Virus record (IMG/VR): IMGVR_UViG_3300033153_002192 | Location: 1-35,947 of that record | Strand: one strand, 5' to 3' | DNA from: a virus | DNA length: 35,947 nt | In this document: positions 5,908 through 26,549 of the stretch, piece by piece | Layout of the letters: every line of letters starts with the position of its first letter | Position numbering within the stretch: position 1 is the first letter of the stretch | The notes under the pieces: generated by a model | The model's database searches: none | What the model saw: only the letters and a program-made list of their open reading frames with translations | Told to the model about the DNA's origin: nothing | Made by a program: the position numbers and the translations under genes

Positions 5908-8183
5908 TGGACTTAATAGAAGAAATGCCACTAGGCGACTCGGAGACAACAGAAGAGGCTAGTGGCTTCTCTCTTGGGTACGAGACTGCACAACTCTCGT
6001 ATGGTGAGGGCATAGAAGAGCAAGCCTTTTCAAAGATCACAAAGTCAATGCCTGACTATGTAGAAAATGCAAAGTATTATGATGCTTGGGCAAATGCAAA
6101 TGATTGGACAGCAGGGAATACAAATACTGCAAGGTATGATATGGCAGCCGTTGATGGTACATTCAAACTAAATGAAGACAATGAAGTTGTACTTGGTGAA
6201 AAAGGTGTGATAGGAAGCGAACTGCTTTTTGATATGGACGCAATGAAAGGCATTTTGCTTGCACAGAAGCAAGGCTATACACAAGAGACATTTGACACAG
6301 AATATTCAAGCATAGCCAAACAAAGAGCAGAACAGATAGCCAAACAAAGAGAAGGCACAAGCACTCTTGGGTACATAGGTGGAGTGATAGCAGGACACAT
6401 CACACAGCCTGAGACATTCCAAGAGATAGCAACATCACCAGCAAAAGTAATGGGCTCTACCATACTTAAGGGAATGGGTAAAGCATTTGTAGCTGAGTCG
6501 GCAGTAGGATTAGTCGGAGAAGTTTCAAGAGAGCAGCGCATACGTGAGCACATGGAGAAAGCAAACCTTGAATACACATTATGGGATAGTGTTTCACAAA
6601 TACTCATAGGTGCAGGGCTTGCAGGAACTTTCAGAGCGATAGGAAGTGGAGTAGTGGATGCAAAGACAGCCAGAGAGATAAACAAACGTGTTCCTGATGG
6701 CGCAGATAAAGAACTTGTAAATAGGTTTTTTCAAAGAGAAGAGTACAAACTCACAGCAGACACCAACAAGCACATAGCCATGCAACAAAAAGCACGCACA
6801 GACATGGACGATGGCAAAGATGTTGATATAGGCGACTCAGCCGACATAGACATAAGCACCAAGACAAGCCCAGAAGTCGAAGAGGTAAGCCTTAGAGGTG
6901 AACTTGAACAGCGTGATATAGATAGCGGATATCCTGATGAGATAGAAAACATGGAAGTCGAGATCACAGCAGCTGAGAAGCAACCAATACCAAAAGAGAC
7001 AGAGCCTACTACTGACAAGTATGACGGAATGACTACGCCAGAAGAGGGTGACGCAAAAATATACGACAACTTAGAGGGTGAAGACCTAGAACAATTCAAA
7101 GCTAACGAAGAAGAGATAGCACGAATTAAAAGCCCTAAAGAGGAGGCACCTATAGTAGAGAGCATAGCAACTAGCACAATAGTAGCTAACGCACAAGCTG
7201 CAAAAGGCAGCAAGTATGTTTGGGGAGGTACTTCAATCAAGAACGGTTCAGACTGTTCGGGGTTTGTGCAATCACTCAACAAAGAGCAAGGCATCAATCT
7301 GCCACGCACAGCATGGGGGCAAGCTAAATCAAACATAGGTGAGAATGTCAAACTCAATGATATGCAGATAGGTGATACGATATACTTCAAGCCAAGTAGA
7401 ACTGGCAAGAAGTACGCACCTGTTACACACGTTGGCATTATAACTGGTATGAAAAACGGTAAGTACATTATGACACACGCTAAAGGCAAGAATTACGGAG
7501 TAGTTGAGGAAGAGTTAAGCCAAGCATATATCAATAGATTTTACACAGCCAAAAGATACGGAGATGGCAAAGCCACTACAGATGCACCAACACCAACACA
7601 AGCCGTTGAAGTTGCAGACGTAAAGCCTACACAAGAAGAGACAATCACTCTTAAACAAGAAGCAGAAGACACAGAATACTTCAATCAGTTACAAGCAAAA
7701 GAAGATGCACTTCTTGAAGTTGTGGAAGCACCCAAGACAGACTGGGACGCTATGGAGAGCAAAACAGAGCCTAAGCCGTTTACTCCCAAGCAAAGCAAGC
7801 AGAAAATAGCTGCAAAGACGAAAGCAGAAGAAAAAAGGCAACAACTCGAAAAGCAGTTTGGTGGAGACGAAGACAAAATCAAAGAGGGAATGAAAATTCC
7901 AAGCAAAAAGAAAGTGCTTCCTGATAGCGAAAAGCTATATAAAGGCATGAGCAAAGCAGACATAAAAGAGATAGATGATGCACACATAGCCAAAGTGAAG
8001 GCTAATGCAGAGTTTGTCAAAAACGCGACAGATGAAGAAAAGGCATTTGATGGATTGTCTGACGAAGAACAAATAGCTATTTTGTCATATCTTGATAAGG
8101 AAACCCTAGAGAAAGTAATACCGTTTGGCTTAATTGCAATCATTATGTCAATTATAGAGGAGCACAATAATGGCACTAGGTAA
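5907..8183 (+). CDS. Ejection protein with NlpC/P60 cell-wall peptidase domain
   Basis: This 758-residue protein is an internal virion protein carrying an NlpC/P60 peptidase at about residues 425-550. The catalytic set is visible: Cys450 in GSDCSGF, His508 in VTHVGII and His524 in MTHAKGK, with the upstream YVWGGTS typical of the fold. NlpC/P60 enzymes cut the stem peptide of peptidoglycan, so it should open the wall during DNA ejection. T7 gp16 instead uses a lytic transglycosylase. A hydrophobic, Gly-rich segment (ILIGAGLAGTFRAIGSG) lies near residue 235. The C-terminal third is Lys/Glu-rich and probably disordered. It overlaps the next gene by 14 bases. Confidence 0.8.
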   Translation: MDLIEEMPLGDSETTEEASGFSLGYETAQLSYGEGIEEQAFSKITKSMPDYVENAKYYDAWANANDWTAGNTNTARYDMAAVDGTFKLNEDNEVVLGEKGVIGSELLFDMDAMKGILLAQKQGYTQETFDTEYSSIAKQRAEQIAKQREGTSTLGYIGGVIAGHITQPETFQEIATSPAKVMGSTILKGMGKAFVAESAVGLVGEVSREQRIREHMEKANLEYTLWDSVSQILIGAGLAGTFRAIGSGVVDAKTAREINKRVPDGADKELVNRFFQREEYKLTADTNKHIAMQQKARTDMDDGKDVDIGDSADIDISTKTSPEVEEVSLRGELEQRDIDSGYPDEIENMEVEITAAEKQPIPKETEPTTDKYDGMTTPEEGDAKIYDNLEGEDLEQFKANEEEIARIKSPKEEAPIVESIATSTIVANAQAAKGSKYVWGGTSIKNGSDCSGFVQSLNKEQGINLPRTAWGQAKSNIGENVKLNDMQIGDTIYFKPSRTGKKYAPVTHVGIITGMKNGKYIMTHAKGKNYGVVEEELSQAYINRFYTAKRYGDGKATTDAPTPTQAVEVADVKPTQEETITLKQEAEDTEYFNQLQAKEDALLEVVEAPKTDWDAMESKTEPKPFTPKQSKQKIAAKTKAEEKRQQLEKQFGGDEDKIKEGMKIPSKKKVLPDSEKLYKGMSKADIKEIDDAHIAKVKANAEFVKNATDEEKAFDGLSDEEQIAILSYLDKETLEKVIPFGLIAIIMSIIEEHNNGTR

Positions 8184-17158: not shown

Positions 17159-17584
17159 TTAAGTATTGCTACAAATATTAACACGGCTATGGCAAACGAT
17201 ATTGTTTTCATCTATGTATTCCTTTATGTTTGTTCCCACACTTAAATATTCTTTGTATTTTTCTATAGTCCACTTTAGTTTTTGAAAGACTTTCCAACTA
17301 TAGGAGCTCTCGAAATACCGACACAGGTTAATAATAAAATACCTATGCTTCCCGATATACTCCACGAACAGTTTCCCCGTTCTATTATAGGTCAACTGTT
17401 TACGCATATCCTGTATCTCTTTGTGAAGTTGGTCGAATTCAATCGTATAATTCACATATTTTTCCCACAGCTCACCACCGTCAAGCGTATTGATGTAGTC
17501 AAACATATCTCTATTGTCTCTTCTAAGATTAGAGAAATACGGTGGCTGTCTGCCAATTCTCTTTGAGTTGTCTGTGAGTGTCAT
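17159..17584 (-). CDS. Minus-strand HTH-like protein (candidate repressor or switch protein)
   Basis: This 141-residue protein is the only well-supported gene of ordinary length on the minus strand. Residues 6-30 (SKRIGRQPPYFSNLRRDNRD) read like a helix-turn-helix of the type found in small phage regulators, followed by an acidic coiled coil (YVNYTIEFDQLHKEIQDMRK) and a basic, aromatic C-terminal half. GAAAGGGA lies before the ATG. It is divergent from the early operon and faces a control region with a palindromic operator. That position suggests a regulator of the early promoter, but the DNA-binding role is inferred. Confidence 0.65.
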   Translation of the reverse strand: MTLTDNSKRIGRQPPYFSNLRRDNRDMFDYINTLDGGELWEKYVNYTIEFDQLHKEIQDMRKQLTYNRTGKLFVEYIGKHRYFIINLCRYFESSYSWKVFQKLKWTIEKYKEYLSVGTNIKEYIDENNIVCHSRVNICSNT

Positions 17585-17600
17585 ACTTTCCCTTTCAAAA

Positions 17601-17730
17601 GAGAACTCTTAGGTCAGCAGGGTGGAATTGAACCACGTGAGTAGATATTCAAGTACAATTATTCTCTACTATCCCGCACTACAAGGGTCGGACTTGCATC
17701 ATCCGCTTAACTGCTGAACTAAAAGTTCTC
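17601..17730 (-). ncRNA. tRNA-like structured element clamped by a long stem
   Basis: On the minus strand the 130 bases fold into an outer stem formed by 17711-17730 and 17601-17620 (20 pairs with one wobble and one mismatch). The inner 7 pairs act like an acceptor stem (TCAGCAG with CTGCTGA). Inside lie a CGGA/TCCG arm, a CCC/GGG arm whose 9-base loop contains TTGTAG, a long variable-like arm (AGTAGA/TCTACT) and a T-arm GTGG-TTCAATT-CCAC with a canonical seven-base T-loop. It is thus like a class II tRNA, but the D-loop lacks GG, the anticodon stem is short and CCT follows the discriminator position. It is in the sense strand of the HTH-gene leader. Confidence 0.4.
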
Positions 17731-17731
17731 A

Positions 17732-17795
17732 TTTAGGGTGCATAAGGAGGAGGTATTTATTGAAAGGGATTAAATAAAATAGTATGCACCCCAAA
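17732..17795. repeat. Inverted repeat enclosing an orphan ribosome binding site
   Basis: GGGTGCATA (17736-17744) is the exact reverse complement of TATGCACCC (17783-17791); with one mismatch the arms extend to 13 bases. The plus-strand loop holds the strong AGGAGGAGG signal at 17745-17753, but only a four-codon frame (TTG start at 17759) follows. It directly abuts the tRNA-like element. It may be a leader hairpin of the minus-strand transcript or the remnant of a lost plus-strand gene. Confidence 0.55.
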
Positions 17796-17810
17796 TCAAG
17801 ACTTACCACC

Positions 17811-17816
17811 ATTATA
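17811..17816 (-). promoter_or_regulatory. Candidate minus-strand promoter (-10) for the HTH-like gene
   Basis: Read on the minus strand, 17816 to 17811 is TATAAT. It would start a leader of about 220 bases containing the two hairpins before the HTH-like gene at 17584. No good -35 box is seen at 16-18 bases. It lies back to back with the strong plus promoter at 17853-17881. Confidence 0.35.
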
Positions 17817-17852: not shown

Positions 17853-17881
17853 TTGACAATGATTGTCTAATCTGATACAAT
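17853..17881 (+). promoter_or_regulatory. Strong sigma70-type promoter of the early operon
   Basis: TTGACA (17853-17858) and TACAAT (17876-17881) are separated by exactly 17 bases. The start of transcription would be near 17888, just before the ribosome binding site AAAGGA of the RHH gene at 17899. It is the only promoter here with both boxes near consensus at ideal spacing. Confidence 0.75.
17855..17867. promoter_or_regulatory. Palindromic operator candidate over the -35 box
   Basis: GACAATGATTGTC is a perfect 6+1+6 palindrome that overlaps the -35 box and spacer of the early promoter. A dimeric repressor bound here would block RNA polymerase. The string TATTGACAATG recurs at the promoter at 22334, where only the left half-site is kept. 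Candidate binders are the divergent HTH-like protein and the RHH protein encoded at 17899. Confidence 0.55.
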
Positions 17882-17898: not shown

Positions 17899-18060
17899 AT
17901 GAAAAAAGCAGATACCCAAATGCAGATAAGATGCAATACAGAATATAAAACCATATTGGCACTGGCAGCTAAAAAAAATAACGTATCTTTGTCTAATTAT
18001 GTTTTGATTGCAGCACTCAATAAAGCCAAAAAAAATAAAAAGGAGTGGGTTGATGTATAA
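17899..18060 (+). CDS. Ribbon-helix-helix regulator (Arc/CopG-like)
   Basis: This 53-residue protein is the first gene of the early operon. A short strand, QMQIRCNTEYK, is followed by two helices, TILALAAKKNN and SLSNYVLIAALNKAK, the RHH pattern of Arc, Mnt and CopG dimers. A Lys-rich tail follows. RHH proteins bind operators as dimers of dimers. The gene lies directly behind a promoter with a palindromic operator, so autoregulation is likely. P22 uses Arc/Mnt in its immunity switch; whether this acts likewise is inference. AAAGGA precedes the ATG. Confidence 0.7.
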   Translation: MKKADTQMQIRCNTEYKTILALAAKKNNVSLSNYVLIAALNKAKKNKKEWVDV

Positions 18061-18847: not shown

Positions 18848-18943
18848 AACAACGCATTGAAAGATGTGTTGTTATGATTTGTAACTAAAAGTAAGTCCTA
18901 GTTCGAGTTCCCGCCAACCGACTTGGCTAGGCTTTACTTTTAG
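18848..18943 (+). promoter_or_regulatory. Structured leader RNA of the replication operon (two hairpins)
   Basis: The first hairpin pairs AACAACGCAT (18848-18857) with ATGTGTTGTT (18864-18873), ten pairs with one wobble. The second pairs CTAAAAGTAA (18885-18894) with TTACTTTTAG (18934-18943), then CCTAG (18897-18901) with CTAGG (18927-18931), then CGAGTT with GACTTG, leaving a C-rich apical loop. No U-tract follows either stem. The 160-base untranslated leader before the replication genes suggests RNA-level control such as antitermination or copy control. Confidence 0.55.
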
Positions 18944-19008
18944 GTATAAAGAGTTGGCACTCTACTTAAAACACCTATTCAACTTTTTTTAATTGTTAAG
19001 GATTTAAC

Positions 19009-19344
19009 ATGACTAACATAGACCGTGAAAATGCTGTACTTGCATCATTTTTATACGCAGATGATATGGGTACAGACAAAAAACAATCTTTTGAGCTAGA
19101 TAGTAGAATTTTTACCTCATCATACAGAAGAGCAACAGCAAACAAGATCAACGATGAAACCAATAACGATAAAATGTACGGGTACTTATCTGTAACACTA
19201 CAAGACTTGACAGCCAACACTATGTATGAACAAGAGTGGATTAATATACTAGCACAAACACCTCTTCCTTTTAGTATGGCAAAAAGAATACACAATGATC
19301 TTATAGTAGAGTTTAATAACAGAATAGCAAAAGGATTAAGGTAA
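19009..19344 (+). CDS. DnaB N-terminal-domain-like protein
   Basis: This 111-residue helical protein looks like the stand-alone N-terminal domain of replicative helicase DnaB. It begins DRENAVLASFLYADD, comparable to the E.AVLG.LL of DnaB, and continues LDSRIFTSSYRRATANKIND, comparable to the D.F....H..I...I of that domain. No ATPase motif is present; that part is supplied by the gene at 19895. AAGGATTTAAC precedes the ATG. Its stop overlaps the initiator gene start by one base. The DnaB assignment is by pattern only. Confidence 0.5.
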   Translation: MTNIDRENAVLASFLYADDMGTDKKQSFELDSRIFTSSYRRATANKINDETNNDKMYGYLSVTLQDLTANTMYEQEWINILAQTPLPFSMAKRIHNDLIVEFNNRIAKGLR

Positions 19345-26442: not shown

Positions 26443-26476
26443 GCAGAAGCGTAACGTGAGTTATTAATCAAGTTTT

Positions 26477-26549
26477 CTTAAAGATGTTGTTTCTTCTTTC
26501 CAAACGGCAGGGCAACATCATCTTTAAGAATAATAAGACCGTTTGGAGG
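26477..26549 (+). promoter_or_regulatory. H-type pseudoknot covering the ribosome binding site
   Basis: Stem A pairs CTTAAAGATG (26477-26486) with CATCTTTAAG (26519-26528), ten perfect pairs. Stem B pairs CCAAACGG (26500-26507), which lies in the loop of A, with CCGTTTGG (26539-26546), eight perfect pairs. The two stems interlock as a pseudoknot. The right arm of B overlaps the Shine-Dalgarno GGAGG (26545-26549) of the gene at 26556, so folding would hide the ribosome binding site. An alternative pairing of GATGTTG with CAACATC is also possible. Confidence 0.7.

Follow-up and report, generated by a model that had tools for sequence, protein, structure and literature searches.

A tRNA-like fold on the minus strand of a viral genome sequence, lying just upstream of a ribosome-binding site (RBS), raises the question whether it is a tRNA gene, a remnant or mimic of one, or part of a regulatory leader. 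The window, i.e. the whole stretch of DNA that was analysed (35,947 bases), is a viral contig with a 114-bp direct terminal repeat and, judged from this repeat, is probably a complete genome. Its genes include those for podovirus-like head-tail connector, terminase, tail, holin, spanin-like, amidase, replication, ERF, and methylase proteins as well as an SSB gene recognised by sequence; no tRNA genes were found in it with ARAGORN. The closest relatives of the window are IMG/VR contigs. Two contigs, L015 and L016, share 80% identity with it in the ATPase, and both stop before the region of interest; the two come from one metagenome and share their end point, which lies 299 bases upstream of the ATPase. 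Protein scans of bacterial genome contigs for a host returned nothing. Rfam searches over the window and its relatives gave no match at the gathering threshold and chance-level matches only below it.

The clamped structure on the minus strand is real, and the elements listed in the first-pass annotation (acceptor-like stem, T-loop on GTGG/CCAC, long arm, TTGTAG-containing loop, and outer stem) were all recovered there. In the computed folds, the clamp pairs GAGAACTTTTAG (17730-17719) with CTAAGAGTTCTC (17612-17601) through 12 pairs including one G-U (pair probability of the 5' arm 0.98-1). A 1x1 mismatch separates it from the acceptor-like stem, in which TCAGCAG (17717-17711) and CTGCTGA (17614-17620) form 7 pairs (pair probability 0.97-1). 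The interior holds the arm CGGAT-GATGCAA-GTCCG in the D-arm position (17689-17705, probability 0.93-0.96), the TTGTAG arm with 3 pairs and a 9-nt loop (probability 0.37), the long arm AGTAGA/TCTACT in the variable-arm position (17640-17670, probability about 0.64), and, read from the sequence, the T-arm GTGG-TTCAATT-CCAC (17622-17636). The part resembling a tRNA 3' half reads GTGGTTCAATTCCACCCTGCTGA. The whole inverted repeat is 24 nt long and 88% complementary, and the closed domain covers about 138 nt (17734-17597) with a stem of about 20 pairs.

For the domain (17734-17597), a folding energy of -45.5 kcal/mol was computed versus a shuffle mean of -28.4 kcal/mol (z -4.9), with 0 of 500 shuffles being as stable, and a 171-nt segment around it gave a z of -4.45 against shuffles. 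The 90-nt interior alone reached a z of +0.16, i.e. a stability not above chance. The gain in stability is due to the 12 pairs of the clamp and the 7 pairs of the acceptor-like stem, both of which form with a probability close to 1.

A stem of this kind might carry a T-arm by accident. According to this explanation, the domain would simply be a long stable stem, such as an RNase III site or a transcript-stabilising structure, which would fit the shuffle-like stability of the interior, the lack of matches to tRNA models, and the occurrence of an unrelated long clamp in the relative L022. What speaks against it is how rarely a strict T-arm would arise in this position by chance. All invariants of a tRNA T-arm (G53, T54, T55, C56, R57, A58, Y60, and C61) are present at tRNA spacing from the acceptor, and the 7-bp acceptor follows directly after T-stem position 65, with CTGCTGA next to CCACC and paired with TCAGCAG. 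When defined strictly (4 Watson-Crick pairs, G53-C61, TTCRANY), a T-arm occurred once in 485,400 strand-bases from 14 stretches of the phage group, and this one site was the domain itself. In a test devised post hoc, shuffles of the interior produced the arm in place at a rate of 2.5e-6 (strict, a single event) to 5e-5 (loose). Coincidence is unlikely even with a generous correction for other noticeable motifs, and the reading of the domain as a plain stem is accordingly rated as very improbable. Whether through descent or through selection, the T-arm genuinely resembles that of a tRNA, and the rest of the cloverleaf is ordinary.

A tRNA gene was ruled out. Neither ARAGORN nor the Rfam tRNA model RF00005, the latter a covariance search of the kind that had been suggested as a check and taken to E values up to 10, matched the domain as a tRNA, with all 14 control genomes being positive in the tRNA search. 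The D-arm rule (A14, G18, G19, and A21) failed, the arm in that position having no GG in its loop, and so did the anticodon arm rule (5 bp, 7-nt loop, and U33). The acceptor-like stem is followed by CTA in place of CCA, and a C-C mismatch occupies position 49-65; the abnormal D-loop and CCA had been recognised correctly in the first reading. Relaxed ARAGORN settings yielded only unspecific matches on both strands. An arrangement with TAGTTCAGCAGTTAAGC as D-arm was attractive by eye, but it consumes the acceptor strand and loses the T-arm spacing, and no arrangement with an intron that was tried by eye restored a D-arm. Compared with a bacterial class II tRNA, the domain shares the T-arm and 7-bp acceptor at exact spacing and a long extra arm, whereas it has no GG D-arm, no anticodon arm with a 7-nt loop, and no CCA, and it carries the outer 12-pair clamp in addition. 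The earlier proposal of a tRNA mimic or decayed tRNA therefore stands for the T-arm and acceptor half, whereas the whole fails every tRNA test.

Decay would mean that the 3' half of a tRNA was captured, inserted in the leader, and drifted, with the clamp forming around it and without a function of its own. The intact T-arm and acceptor next to a degenerate remainder could be seen as a trace of such an event, and the domain is present in one genome only, with the leader occurring in relatives without it. However, a mismatch-free 12-pair outer clamp is not expected to be gained during decay, the survival of just the acceptor and T-arm while the remainder is gone can also be held against it, and no matching tRNA was found. 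Decay is therefore considered quite unlikely.

No other copy of the domain was detected in relatives by motif scan and nhmmer (0.92 million bases of fetched loci) or in phage and plasmid collections; the one match from the phage collection, 40 nt within a gene of a Helicobacter prophage, was at chance level (E 0.04). Since a single genome carries the domain, its pairs are not backed by covariation. For conserved pairing in relatives, which had been named as a further check, the domain thus offers no second copy to compare, whereas the adjoining hairpin held up in an analogous comparison. Absence at the same place in relatives, together with the 24-nt inverted repeat (88%), might also point to a small MITE-like mobile element of 138 bp with 24-nt terminal inverted repeats that inserted between hairpin and RBS. 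Against this, a second copy is absent from the window, the relatives, and the phage and plasmid collections, and there is no obvious target duplication, which leaves a mobile element highly unlikely.

The domain is flanked upstream by a hairpin and downstream by the RBS of a gene that runs leftward and encodes a 141-aa product. Arms A (17783-17804) and C (17723-17744) of this hairpin, all on the minus strand like the elements below, pair over 22 nt at 82% and enclose a loop of 38 nt. Within the loop, segment B, UCCCUUUCAA (17760-17769), is a perfect 10-nt complement of segment F, UUGAAAGGGA (17589-17598), which contains the Shine-Dalgarno (SD) sequence. On the 3' side of the hairpin lies the C/U-rich CCUCCUCCUU (17744-17753), which recurs in relatives. 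Arm C has a dual use, as its CCC can pair with the RBS and its GAGAACTT is also part of the clamp. The clamp adjoins C on its 5' side and F on its 3' side, and closing it therefore brings hairpin and RBS next to each other. A TATAAT at 17811-17816 is a weak candidate -10 box for the leftward leader, without a good -35 and not among the matches of a consensus promoter scan; it would put the transcript start near 17805, just before arm A.

Constrained folding, with pseudoknot energies excluded, gave -68.9 kcal/mol for pairing of C with the RBS, -67.7 kcal/mol for B with the RBS, and -67.6 kcal/mol for A with C, and the clamp was closed in all of them. The GGG of the SD sequence was paired at 0.75-0.88. 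Pairing of B with F while A and C are paired requires a pseudoknot. Three leader folds with different partners thus lie within 1.3 kcal/mol, and switching of the leader is therefore plausible.

Evidence for pairing of the loop with the RBS came from related phages. Among 163 deduplicated gene starts with an upstream hairpin in the fetched relatives, in which leaders were both found and counted, nine had a loop matching their own RBS over at least 8 nt, with 0.73 expected. When the RBSs were permuted among genes, which controls for composition, none of 1000 permutations reached nine, and the maximum was five. Loop and RBS co-vary, because the matches persist with differing sequences. This covariation-like evidence suggests that loop-RBS pairing is selected, be it in cis (as a pseudoknot or by refolding) or via a released antisense RNA. 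It also lends weight to the "regulatory RNA in the leader" of the first-pass annotation, since an RBS-complementary hairpin loop that recurs with changed sequences, evidence absent from that annotation, supports it. Of wider reach than the domain itself is this set of phage leaders in which loop and RBS are complementary.

The nearest equivalent was found in L002 (6285-6199, minus strand), where a hairpin without the tRNA-like domain stands directly before the RBS of a leftward early gene. It has an outer stem, an inner stem with the loop CCCCUUUUCA, CCUCCUCCUU on its 3' side, and the loop-RBS match UGAAAAGG. Two such hairpins occur in tandem in L022 and one more in L046, and the five hairpins of this type fold alone to one architecture. 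In L022 (15458-15804, plus strand), a 21-nt clamp encloses a 144-nt interior unlike the domain of the window and is followed by two tandem hairpins with C/U-rich loops; GAGCTT is repeated at each junction, and a 71-aa gene lies downstream. A search of all viral contigs with the C-rich-loop pattern gave 30 matches, with the hairpin present only in two relatives that were already known. The genes behind equivalent leaders differ (MUG113/T5orf172-like, YopX, and unknown), and a common regulated function is therefore not evident.

A smaller hairpin type precedes the SSB-containing operon in the window (26475-26530, plus strand), L023 (5663-5725), L022 (11029-10970, minus strand), and L046 (2813-2748, minus strand), and also an early gene in L015 (3638-3695). 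The loop and the RBS of whichever gene comes first match over 7-11 nt, and both sequences and first genes differ among the genomes.

Other possible elements were noted in passing. In L046, a hairpin AGTAGCA-TTGGTTTTCC-TGCTACT (8103-8153, plus strand), whose loop is complementary to GAAAACCAA beside the RBS, lies downstream of a larger C/U-loop hairpin (7961-8048). In L038 (815-897, plus strand), the hairpin loop CTTGGTCGTGCTTC is complementary to AAGCACGA, which immediately precedes the RBS of a 391-aa open reading frame. L002 (7050-7150, plus strand) has two mutually exclusive, riboswitch-like stems with GAGTGTCCAAGC in common before the replication initiator gene. In the window, a 26-nt imperfect inverted repeat (18878-18950, plus strand) precedes the gene at 19009, and its loop GCCAAC is complementary to GTTGGC just downstream.

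Taken together, we favour, with moderate confidence, translational control of the leftward 141-aa gene by a 5' leader of about 220 nt, in which the RBS of this gene would be masked. If the leader is transcribed, the upstream hairpin would present loop segment B, which would pair with segment F and so mask the RBS, and arm C could serve as an alternative partner. The clamp, closed in every low-energy fold, would hold hairpin and RBS side by side across 138 nt, so that masking, which in relatives would take place over about 20-40 nt from hairpin to start codon, might still be workable over this distance. The clamp domain could then be an insertion that the leader tolerates or an additional module by which the geometry is preserved. 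For the trigger that opens the RBS, we infer three candidates, namely the order of folding during transcription (with A-C forming first), the action of a protein, and cleavage within the T-arm domain.

Regarding the last of these, the T-arm may be a handle for a factor that binds or cuts RNA. As a tRNA mimic, the minihelix of acceptor and T-arm would be recognised by RNase P or another tRNA enzyme, and cutting or binding would separate the antisense hairpin from the gene or free the RBS. The T-arm invariants at exact spacing, hardly expected by chance, argue for such a mimic, as do its position between an RBS-complementary hairpin and the RBS and the precedent of c4, which is processed by RNase P in phage P1 (PMC5320573). 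RNase P would be the natural candidate, because c4 is RNase P-processed and has loops that cover an RBS. However, unlike in an ordinary RNase P substrate, the acceptor flanks are base-paired by the 12-pair clamp, and this extension makes simple RNase P cleavage at the acceptor end less likely. The CCA or RCC after the acceptor is also missing, D and anticodon parts are absent, and there are no copies in relatives. A mimic is thus a tentative and rather unlikely explanation, and sensing of an enzyme or RNase P action on the T-arm may be regarded as a candidate role only. An equally tentative place is given to the combined proposal that the tRNA minihelix on its long clamp would be a host tRNA-enzyme sensor or processing site that sets the masking of the RBS by the loop, within a so far undescribed family of leaders of early phage genes, in which the loop co-evolves with the RBS of whichever gene stands first.

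The gene behind the leader (17159-17584, minus strand) had been called a regulator in the first reading, which the searches did not bear out: the 141-aa product had no family match and only weak relatives in early operons of the phage group, in L022 (E 1e-4 in one record) and, via L022, in L015 and L016. These homologue genes have no leader of their own. At the sensitivity used, no relatives were found in phages, plasmids, viral contigs, or bacterial genomes. An AlphaFold model was mainly helical and poor (mean pLDDT 67). That the product might be a regulator is inferred from an adjacent divergent promoter with a palindrome and from a possible helix-turn-helix seen by eye. This promoter is strong and sigma-70-like (TTGACA, 17, TACAAT; 17853-17881, plus strand) and serves the rightward genes, and the palindrome GACAATGATTGTC (17855-17867) overlaps it as a candidate operator. 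Divergent from the 141-aa gene, a 53-aa ribbon-helix-helix-like protein with weak TacA1, NikA, and MobA matches is encoded at 17899-18060 (plus strand).

Among known systems, the c4 RNA of phages P1 and P7 offers the closest comparison. Its gene precedes that of the target on the same strand. The P1 RNA is an RNase P substrate, and its loops cover an RBS (PMC5320573, PMC12197685). The leader shares with c4 (RF01695) a hairpin loop complementary to a downstream RBS (10 nt; a shared transcript is presumed) and the location in a phage regulatory region. In contrast to the a'/b' pair of c4, it has one loop match, it has a T-arm domain between hairpin and RBS, and it is presumed to act in cis, whereas c4 is a processed antisense RNA. 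The C4 model had no match in the leader at E 10, and the best reading may be that the leader works like P1 c4 RNA, outside that family.

In T4 gene 32, a leader pseudoknot 67 nt upstream of the start nucleates gp32 binding, and spreading covers the RBS (PMC3014915). The leader of gene 32 (SSB) in T4, T2, and RB69 is likewise a structured phage leader before an RBS, and one leader family of this phage group stands on the SSB-containing operon (26475-26530 in the window and its counterparts in relatives); however, in the phage group it is the loop that complements the RBS, and different genes come first behind the element. In the T4 genes e, soc, 49, and I-TevI, the SD sequence is held in a helix in longer transcripts (PMC3014915). 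The SD sequence is predicted to be in a helix here as well, but the helix of those genes is local, whereas in the leader the SD sequence would pair with the loop of a separate hairpin further upstream, across a closed domain. If the proposed mechanism is true, early operons of this phage group would be under leader hairpins with loops that track the RBS of whichever gene is first, a compact and easily rewired translation switch with no Rfam family match in the stretches searched. The T-arm in one of these leaders would offer a cheap and direct test of a host tRNA enzyme as a phage trigger. A review of T4 from 2010 described the gene 32 pseudoknot as possibly the only viral example in translation autoregulation (PMC3014915), and next to this single example a leader family backed by covariation-like evidence would make a useful new system.
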